Assembly (NCBI GenBank): GCA_030841025.1
Contig: JAVEDJ010000179.1
Span: 1-35,584 of the forward strand
Direction of reading: 5' to 3'
DNA: 35,584 nucleotides
Origin: Actinomycetota bacterium
Lineage (GTDB): Bacteria; Actinomycetota; Actinomycetes; JACCUZ01
Under the pieces are notes generated by a model. It was not told where the DNA came from. It saw only the letters and a program-made list of their open reading frames with translations, and ran no database searches. Positions 15,782 through 19,627 of this stretch are shown in pieces (the stretch's first letter is position 1; each line of letters opens with the position of its first letter). The translations under genes were made by a program, and so were the position numbers.

Positions 15782-15870
15782 GACCCGTGCGGCCATTGCG
15801 CGCGTTCCGCGCCGCTGACCGGCCCGAGTGGGGCAGCATCGGAGGCGTACCCGACCGGGGGAGCTTTTCC

Positions 15871-16971
15871 GTGCACCACCACCGCGCGCCGCTCGCTGCG
15901 GCCGTCTCCGCCGTGCTCGTGACGACGCTGCTCGCACTGGCCCCGGGCGCCAGGGCCGCCACGGCCGGCACCGAGCCGGTCGCCGGGCAGCGGCGAAGCG
16001 GTGGCGACATCTCCTGGCCCAACTGCCCGAAGGGCATGGGCATCGCGAGCCGGCGCAGCCAGGGCATGCCGCTGCCGCTGGGCTCGGCCTCGTTCGTCGT
16101 GGTCGGGCTGACCAACGGCCCCGGCTTCGTGCCCAATCCCTGCCTCGCCGACCAGGTCACCTGGGCCCGCAGCCGCGCCGTCTGGACGGCGGCCTACGCG
16201 ATGACGACGTACCCCACGTCCGCGCAACGCGCAGCCTTCGCCGCCAGCGGACCGTGGAGCGCCCTGACGGCGGCCGGGCAGCTGCGCAACGCCGGCTACC
16301 AGCAGGCCCTGTCCAACGTCGCCTCCATGCGCGCCACCGGCCTCGACGTGCCGCTGGTCTGGGTCGATGTCGAGCCCTACCCCACACATCCATGGCCGGC
16401 GAACCGGGCGCGCAACCGCGACGTCGTCCGCGGTGTCGTGCGCGGTTACGAGGACAGCGGCTACCGGGTCGGCTTCTATTCGTACGACGGCGGCTGGCGC
16501 GCCGTGGTCGGGGCGTGGCGGCAACCGGCGTACCCGACGTGGGTCCCCGTCGGCGGCGGTGCCGGTGGTTGGACGCGGGCGTCGCGGGCCTGCGGCGGCG
16601 CCAGCTTCTCCGGCGGGCCGGTGATGATGGCGCAATGGGTCGAGGGCGGGCGTGACCGCGACATCACCTGCGCCGCGCTGCACGGACGTGCCGCCGCGTG
16701 GCACCCGCTGACCAACCTGCTCGCCCGCCGCCTGCAGCTCGGGTCGCGCGGGACCGCCGTGATCCGGCTGCAGCGGGCGCTGGGCATGACGGGGCGTCAG
16801 GTGGACGGACGCTTCGGGGCACGTACCCGGCGGTGGCTGATCTCCTTCCAGAACCGCCACGGCCTGGCTCCCACCGGCATCACCGGGCAGGACACGTGGC
16901 GCGCGCTCGGCGCGGGGCAGCGGCTGCCGGAGCGGCCGTCACGGCTGGCCGAGGCTTTCCGGGCGTACTGA
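15871..16971 (+). CDS. Secreted protein: glycoside-hydrolase-like (DUF1906/GH25-like) domain plus C-terminal peptidoglycan-binding domain
   Basis: Signal peptide APLAAAVSAVLVTTLLALAPGARAA; GGDISWPNCPKGMGI, VPLVWVDVEPYPTHPW; C-term LGSRGTAVIRLQRALGMTGRQVDGRFGARTRRWLISFQ; SD gggggag upstream of GTG. Confidence 0.8.
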   Translation: MHHHRAPLAAAVSAVLVTTLLALAPGARAATAGTEPVAGQRRSGGDISWPNCPKGMGIASRRSQGMPLPLGSASFVVVGLTNGPGFVPNPCLADQVTWARSRAVWTAAYAMTTYPTSAQRAAFAASGPWSALTAAGQLRNAGYQQALSNVASMRATGLDVPLVWVDVEPYPTHPWPANRARNRDVVRGVVRGYEDSGYRVGFYSYDGGWRAVVGAWRQPAYPTWVPVGGGAGGWTRASRACGGASFSGGPVMMAQWVEGGRDRDITCAALHGRAAAWHPLTNLLARRLQLGSRGTAVIRLQRALGMTGRQVDGRFGARTRRWLISFQNRHGLAPTGITGQDTWRALGAGQRLPERPSRLAEAFRAY

Positions 16972-16998: not shown

Positions 16999-19479
16999 TC
17001 AGGCGCGGCGGACGGTCAGCCGCGCGTTCGTGCAGGTCGCGGCCAGTGTCGCCAGCTGGCGCTTCTCGGCGGCGTCAACGGTCAGGCCCCAGCGGACCTT
17101 CACTGCGACCCACTGCGCGACGTACTGGCAGCGTGCGGCCTTGACGGGCAGCCACCGCGTCGGATCCTGGCTGCCGCGGGCCCTGGCCACCTTCGTGCTG
17201 ACCGCGACGAGGGTGCGGGGGTCGGAGAGGTCGTTGGCGAAGGCCAGCCGTCGCGCCGCGGACCAGGACCGAGCACCCGACTCCCACGCCTCGCGCAGCG
17301 GCACGGTGGCGGTCACCGTCACACCCGAGGCCGCCTTGATGTTCGTGCGGTCGAGGTAGGAGAACCAGTCGCCGGTCCGGACCGTGCATCGTCGAGAGCC
17401 TGTGAAGGCCGCGGACCGGCGGGTCTCGGACACGAGGACCTCCGTGCGCGTGCTCTGGCAGTCGCGGTCGGCGTCCACCAGCGGGAAGCGCCTGGCCGAG
17501 TAGCCGGCACGAACCTCGCCGCGCACGGTAAGGGAAGCGACCGCGCTGCGGAGCGTGCCGCCGTAGGTCCGCGGCTGCACGGTGGGGGTCGTCGGGCCGG
17601 GTCCGGGCACGGTGACCGTGGGAGGCGGTACGACGACGACGGGATCGGCCACGACGGGTGGCGGAGCTGTGACCGTCGGCGGATCAGCGACCGCCGGAGG
17701 TTCGCTGGTGGTCACACCAGGCGCCGGGTCGACGCGGAGACTGAGCTGCCTCGTGGCGGCTGCTGCGGTGTCGGGGTTGGTGACCTGCACCGTGACGGGG
17801 GACGAGCCGGCTGACGACGGCGTCCCCGAGATCGTGCCCGTGCCGGAGAGCGTCAGCCCGGCCGGCAGCGAGCCGGAGGCCAGCGCCCAGCTGTAGCTGC
17901 CCGAGCCGCCGACCGCCGTGAGGTCGGCCTGGTAGGCGGCGCCCGACTCGGCGGCCGGCAACGCACTGGTCGCCACGGAGAGCGGGACGACGGTGTCGAC
18001 GACGCCGATGGTGTAGCGCCCGAGGCTCGCGTAGTCGCTGTAGCCGGTGGCCGTGGGACTGCCGGAGCCGACGCCGTCCACCTTCGCGAGGTAGGTGCCA
18101 GGCTCCAGCGTCCGGGTGAGGCCGGCGTTCAGGCCCTTGACGGAGTCGGCCGACTCCTTCGCGGCGGCCGGGTCGTCGGTGCCGAGCGGCGCGCCGGCGG
18201 CGTCGTACAGGTCGAGGCGTGCGTCCAGGTTCCCGCCCACGGTCTGGGGGGTGACCCGCACGGTGACCGGGCGCGCGGCACCGGACACCGTGAAGCTGAA
18301 CCAGTCGGTGTCCTGGCGCGAGGAGATGAGCCCGTCGGTGAGCGTCCCGTCGACCGGCAGCGTGGTCGCGCTGCCCGCGGCGTCCGCGTGGTCGTCGGCC
18401 ACGGGGGCCGCACCGTGGGCCGCGATGACGGCCAGGTCGTCCTCGGTGTTGTTGCTGTTGCTGTACTCGCCCTTGCTCCACTGCGTGACGGGCAGGTAGT
18501 AGCCCACTCCCATGATCGGCGCCCAGGCACCCTGGCCCGCGTAGTAAGGCTTTGTGGTCGTCCCGTCGTGGTTGAGGCCCAGGTTGTGCCCGATCTCGTG
18601 CGAGGCGGCCTCGGCCAGGGACTTCGGCTTGGCCGAGGTGCCGCGCTGGAAGATCAGCGCCGGCTGGTAGTAGGCAGGGCTGGAGGGCCGGTCGAAGACA
18701 CCGATGTAGGCGACACCGCCGCAGGAGCTGTTGCATCCCGCGGGATCGCCGTAGACGACGGTGTCGTTGGTGATGAGCGCGCGGGTGCCGTAGACCTGGT
18801 CGCTCACGCCCGAGCGGGTGATGGCGTCCGCGGCCGGCTCCTGCGTGGTGACGTTCACGTCGAACGGCGCGTAGTCCTCCGCGACCCGCTGCCAGACGCT
18901 GCGGATGGTGTCCTGCTCGGTGGGGCTGAACGACGCGGGCGCTCCATCGGTGTCGAACGGCGCCGCGACGAAGTCGCTGTTGCCGGTGTCCCGGTTCCAG
19001 ACGGTGCCGACGAGCCGTTCGCCGGTGAAGTCGAGGTAGATCGTCCGCTGCGACGCGGGCCGGCTGCTGAGCGCGAACGGGTTACCGCTCGGGTCCAGGC
19101 CGGCGAACTCAGGGGCCCCGGCGTCTGTCGGGGCTCCGGCGGGGTCCGGCTCGGCCGCCGCCGGCTCAGCGCGGATCGGCTCGACGACGACCGTCTCGCC
19201 GCACTCGTCGACCAGCACGGTTTCGTCGGTACGCAGCAGGGTGCGGTACTCGGACGGCGTCATGTCGACGTTGGCGGCCGCGGTCGGCAGGTCCGCGCCC
19301 AGCTCGCGGACGGCCGCAGCGCCGCCCACGGGGTCGGCCACGACGGCCTCGGCGCACGGCCGGGGCCTCGCGGGCTCGGCCTGGCCACCCGCCGCCCACG
19401 CGGGAGCGGACCCCAGCAGCGGACCGAGGAGCGTCGTGGCGGTGGCGAGCGTGGCCAGGCGCCGCGTGCGGGCACGCAT
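16999..19479 (-). CDS. Secreted metzincin-type zinc metalloprotease with PPC-like and putative Ig domains and a C-terminal DUF1524/HNH-like domain that looks catalytically degenerate
   Basis: [15 protein letters not shown] (HExxHxxGxxHD) and Met-turn APIMGVGYY; signal peptide [23 protein letters not shown]-term CQSTRTEVL...[26 protein letters not shown]. Alternative start at 19524. Confidence 0.88.
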
Positions 19480-19627
19480 CAGGCCGTCCTCACCCGCACG
19501 CACCCGAGCCCAGCCGAAAGCCATGGTCGGTTCATCGCCTGAGCGGGCCGGGATCTTTAGCCCCTGGGGCTGTGTGCCTGCTCACGCGCCGGCCCAGCGG
19601 TGCGGGCCGGGCCGCCGCGATTGGGCC

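Follow-up and report, generated by a model that had tools for sequence, protein, structure and literature searches.

The stretch of DNA considered here, hereafter the window, comprises 35,584 nucleotides from a member of the Actinomycetota and encodes a protein, P0001, in which a secreted metzincin protease ends in a region resembling the DUF1524 (GmrSD_C, PF07510) family of HNH nucleases. Why a secreted protease should carry such a tail, and what the tail may do there now that its catalytic residues appear to have gone, are the questions addressed below.

Domain Architecture

The features of P0001, all on the minus strand, are as follows (window coordinates first).

16999..19524, minus: open reading frame of P0001, a secreted metzincin with a predicted C-terminal pseudo-nuclease, 841 residues
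19479, minus: likely true start, Met16; ggtgagga stands 7 bases upstream of this second ATG, with a canonical signal peptide behind it
19393..19479, minus: predicted signal peptide, residues 16-44, read from the sequence
18409..19047, minus: metzincin protease domain, about residues 160-372 (PF13582 Reprolysin_3, 26.8 bits against a cut-off of 22.4)
18600-18565, minus: zinc motif of the HExxHxxGxxH/D type, residues 309-320, by motif reading
18516-18499, minus: Met-turn IMGVGY, residues 337-342, by motif reading
18073..18312, minus: PPC domain, residues 405-484 (PF04151, 28.6 bits against a cut-off of 25.9)
17737..17976, minus: putative Ig domain He_PIG, residues 517-596 (PF05345, E 7e-12, above cut-off)
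17560..17727, minus: Pro/Thr/Val-rich linker, about residues 600-655, from the sequence
17002..17559, minus: HNH domain of the DUF1524/GmrSD_C family, degenerate, residues 656-841, without His and with a net charge of +17, from homology, fold and charge
17308..17319, minus: position of D-x-D-H, now T736-V-T738-A739, by alignment
17170..17190, minus: position of N..K.D, now V-A780-R-A-R783-G-S785, by alignment

With zinc motif and Met-turn both present and PF13582 over its cut-off, the protease belongs among the metzincins (M12B reprolysin-like). The protease motifs and C-terminal sequence on which an earlier, sequence-only reading had drawn were all found in place. That reading had set the domain border at 17530; a domain does lie there, but it begins slightly upstream, at about residue 656 (17559), and runs to the stop codon.

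Relatives of the metzincin, sought with the protease part alone, included secreted Actinomycetota proteins with PPC and Ig or fn3 domains (L178, L183, L185, L206). These share the protease and PPC domain of P0001, and often He_PIG-like repeats, but their tails consist of Ig or fn3 repeats or an LPXTG-like anchor and, in the loci read, never of DUF1524. A metzincin orthologue from the same family as P0001 (L047/L048, G006:C143) ends, without DUF1524, in three near-identical repeats of ~145 residues (GNPGFENGSA...PWTSSYGVIDSSTAQPARTG), which look like a recent tandem duplication. Convergent with P0001, on the plus strand at about 15800-16971 of the window, lies the gene of an apparently secreted protein (GDISWPNCPKGMG...); PG_binding_1 forms its C-terminal domain, and its N-terminal part has no Pfam match.

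Identity and Catalytic State of the Terminal Domain

The PF07510 profile gives P0001 weak scores, with E-values of 0.19 when the whole protein is searched and 0.014 when its last 204 residues are; the domain alone, at 15.7 bits, misses the cut-off of 23. The host genome, however, encodes two apparently secreted DUF1524 proteins whose DIDH...N motifs are intact. The domain matches them by BLAST at 5e-32 and 7e-27, and the first of the two itself scores 1.1e-11 against PF07510; the DUF1524 homology is thus not due to chance. A chance resemblance is likewise ruled out by the tree and by the fold. Judged by these comparisons, the last ~186 residues of P0001 are a true homologue of the secreted DUF1524 HNH nucleases. 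The closest intact relatives are secreted nucleases of the Micrococcaceae (Arthrobacter, Micrococcus; DRDCQNTR...QIDHxVPVHEAW), with ~50% identity over the whole domain, the same predicted fold and cysteines, and the signatures DRDCQxTR and CTVRTG. Unlike the tail of P0001, these are short, secreted proteins which retain D-H-N. The family denoted f3 is tied to the same group, the L071 domain being identical in sequence to that of Micrococcus lacusdianchii (L107) and the L026 domain to that of Arthrobacter ipis (L170).

An AlphaFold2 model built with 53 homologues (mean pLDDT 95.7, pTM 0.91) places the former D-H site in a strand (residues 735-739) and the former N site in a helix (777-783). 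Foldseek comparison of this model with the PDB ranked Vvn, a periplasmic endonuclease, at the top (E 0.09, probability 0.87), followed mostly by Cas9 HNH domains; such modest E-values, of 0.09 and above, are to be expected for a branch of the His-Me finger fold that is still uncharacterised. Sequence searches of the PDB with the domain, or with its alignment, gave nothing credible. As modelled, the domain has the beta-beta-alpha-Me core of a His-Me finger (HNH) nuclease, and the nuclease fold proposed from the sequence is upheld in place of an unrelated one.

The active site of GmrD, from the Type IV restriction enzyme GmrSD, has been placed at an E/D-H-N-N motif, and Eco94GmrSD loses its activity when D, H or N is mutated (PMC4619093). 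GmrD shares its Pfam family and predicted HNH fold with the P0001 domain but, unlike it, retains E/D-H-N-N, is cytoplasmic and targets modified phage DNA (PMC4619093). In P0001, alignment puts T738 at D, A739 at H and A780 at the second N, with K783 changed to R and D785 to S; of the motif only N764, probably its structural Asn, is left. Among columns at least 95% conserved in intact DUF1524 members, all four at the catalytic site have changed against 2 of 25 others (Fisher p=6e-4), the remaining 23 and the cysteines being retained. Conserved catalytic residues are thus gone from a kept scaffold with enzymatic homologues, the pattern by which pseudoenzymes are recognized, and the domain is predicted to lack nuclease activity. 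Third-codon GC in the domain (0.91) matches that in the protease (0.94), which is what a coding region still being maintained should show.

Much of this had been anticipated from the sequence alone. The replacement of NxxKGD by VARARGS holds, with A780, R783 and S785 standing at N..K.D, as does the claim of a retained scaffold. The lost D-H pair had been equated with VTAT; the loss stands but the register was off by one, D-H aligning with T738-A739 (DIDH to TVTA, 736-739). The suspicion of dead catalysis gains weight from the change of D, H, N and K alike, and intact HNH residues were not found elsewhere in the domain.

Distribution and Origins of Degenerate DUF1524 Domains

DUF1524 matches, mostly in short open frames, occurred in 307 of the 395 genomes sampled from the class, the larger DUF1524 searches having scored eight candidates per genome. 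D/E-H-N was kept in 182 of the 195 non-identical domains gathered, and nine of the 13 without the full motif belong to the small actinobacterial family of P0001 itself, which was represented by eight genomes from seven genera. Widening the search from family to order level brought in no further genomes, so the lineage of the host is small.

The hosts of these nine domains comprise the metzincin P0001, six proteins combining a calcineurin-like phosphoesterase with fn3 (L007, L008, L011, L012, L013, L015), one heparinase II/III-like protein (L066) and L005, where the domain follows a long TP-repeat linker and the start lies beyond the contig end. One phosphoesterase protein was confirmed by Pfam, and all six could be aligned with one another from end to end. 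Like P0001, they are secreted and end in a degenerate, basic DUF1524 domain; unlike P0001, they recruited a separate nuclease lineage, and four of the six keep E/D-H. In L066 (G003:C179) the domain sits at the N-terminus, so the module is not confined to C-termini.

N is lost in all nine domains. H is lost as well in P0001, L005, L007, L009 and L011, and E/D-H is kept in L008, L012, L013 and L015; in these four phosphoesterase copies, which lack N, the loss of catalysis is therefore graded. Among the domains joined to the metzincin, the six phosphoesterases or the heparinase-like lyase, N is absent throughout and H from half.

A tree built with the catalytic columns masked, the label "degenerate" being taken from the very motif whose columns were left out, places these domains in three positions. 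The P0001 domain groups next to nucleases of the Micrococcaceae (support 99/80). The phosphoesterase-type clade adjoins the intact paralogues L001/L006 (100/95), and L009 stands alone. A single ancestral dead module common to all the fusions was rejected by an AU test with the same masking (p-AU 2e-4). The degenerate domains of the family derive from at least three separate lineages.

Further metzincin-DUF1524 fusions, for which the sequence-only reading had suggested a search, were not found in the sampled genomes beyond that of P0001. Nor was the phosphoesterase, fn3 and degenerate DUF1524 combination found outside the family in the class sample, with three candidates scored per genome; at eight or three candidates per genome, other fusions may have been missed. 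The titles and abstracts listed from the open literature yielded no description of DUF1524 or pseudonuclease fusions of this kind.

Two observations fall outside the family. L050 (G018:C1:4544191-4545651) pairs a degenerate DUF1524 domain lacking N (TVERLVP...SAAKRKG) with Excalibur; in the two genomes sampled from its genus, the closest matches are intact nucleases. L054 (G114:C2) keeps D-H, has N replaced by T, and lies behind a secreted HEWLH region without a Pfam match; it is possibly another protease-DUF1524 fusion, of a separate family. L164, a broken fragment, and L171, standalone with N replaced by K, were treated as isolated cases and not considered further.

Charge of the Degenerate Domains

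Intact DUF1524 domains (n=149) average a net charge of -5.3, with a median pI of 4.8, against +8 to +18 for the nine degenerate domains; the associated p-value of 4e-6 is descriptive only, as related sequences were treated as independent. Outside these domains the host enzymes are acidic (-32 for the P0001 protease, -10 to -20 for the phosphoesterases), against +17 to +20 for the domains they carry. The size of the gain differs between lineages. The nearest intact relatives of the P0001 domain are already basic, at +8 to +11, so that part of its charge was inherited and the gain is modest, whereas those of the phosphoesterase clade stand at 0 and +3, making the gain there clear. Beside the dead site, position 744 is Arg in P0001 (R744), in L009 and in four of the seven members of the phosphoesterase-type clade; among intact domains, only 7% have Lys or Arg there. 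Against the argument from charge, it should be noted that GC-rich genomes favour Arg.

Discussion

Building on the computed homology, fold, catalytic loss and charge shift, and on the separate recurrence of such domains on other secreted enzymes of the family, we propose that a secreted metzincin acquired a secreted HNH nuclease as its C-terminal domain. On this view the residues for metal binding and general-base catalysis were lost, the fold and presumably both disulfides persisted, and the nuclease turned into a basic binding module without catalytic function. The module would most likely keep the protease attached to polyanions outside the cell or at a surface (extracellular DNA, teichoic acids or acidic exopolysaccharide), allowing the enzyme to act in place and not diffuse away. 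We put the probability that the domain is a captured, catalytically dead nuclease tethering its protease to polyanions at roughly 55%. That the degenerate domains bind is our inference, and their positive charge makes polyanions the likeliest ligand.

Tethering as the use is favoured mainly by a reversal of roles. Elsewhere in the actinobacteria, intact DUF1524 domains are fused to surface or accessory modules, namely CWB2 (L051), SLH (L053, L077), P-domain (L113), LTD (L112) and Excalibur (L103); in those proteins the nuclease provides the enzyme and its partner serves as anchor or accessory. The roles are exchanged in the family of P0001: the enzyme is now the partner, with the former nuclease sitting where a binding module usually would. 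The SLH- or CWB2-bearing proteins (L053, L077, L051) are apparently nucleases anchored on the cell surface. The binding module suggested in the sequence-only reading gains support from the three dead lineages on secreted enzymes and their consistent gain of positive charge. That the metzincin fusion is known from one genome only counts against our proposal.

A dead domain might instead bind a protein partner or the protein substrate of the protease, or fold back to regulate the protease. Pseudoenzymes commonly serve as scaffolds or allosteric regulators (PMC10211241), and the tight conservation of the scaffold would suit such a role. We nevertheless consider it unlikely, as modules of this type on three enzymes with unrelated substrates argue for a general surface or matrix ligand, and positive charge is the feature they have in common.

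Rather improbable, in our view, is that the domain is the decaying leftover of an accidental fusion, its activity lost under relaxed selection and no role gained. The single metzincin fusion and the graded losses among relatives, some without N but with E/D-H, are what decay might leave. The near-complete retention of non-catalytic conserved columns and cysteines, the normal coding composition, and a recurrence in at least three lineages and six genera are not. The P0001 copy alone may nonetheless be a recent, relaxed domain without use.

Continued nuclease activity through relocated residues is very improbable. The fold and many residues of the cleft (R759, N764, D765, K809) remain, but D, H, N and K have become T, A, A and R, respectively. 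Substitutions at the corresponding D, H and N are reported to inactivate Eco94GmrSD (PMC4619093), and residues 649-841 contain no histidine, which rules out a relocated general base. Least credible is an assembly chimera of a protease and a nuclease gene: the genome is fragmented (433 contigs) and the fusion unique to it, but the frame is single and open, third-codon GC is consistent, the degenerate motif is absent from every intact gene found in that genome, and analogous dead fusions occur in other genomes of the family.

To return to the tether, its extension beyond P0001 is more tentative: the HNH fold may have been converted separately, several times within one actinobacterial family, into a general basic anchor for extracellular enzymes, which would make it a nuclease-derived counterpart of carbohydrate-binding modules.

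Conclusions

To our knowledge, enzyme-derived binding domains are usually regarded as isolated cases. Here, separate nuclease lineages have lost their catalytic residues in secreted proteins of one small family, joined to other enzymes and all basic. This suggests a testable rule, whereby a DUF1524 nuclease joined to an enzyme becomes a binder and one joined to a surface module remains an enzyme. If confirmed, the finding would offer a small, disulfide-stabilised tag and would explain how some actinobacterial enzymes stay on DNA-rich or anionic matrices.
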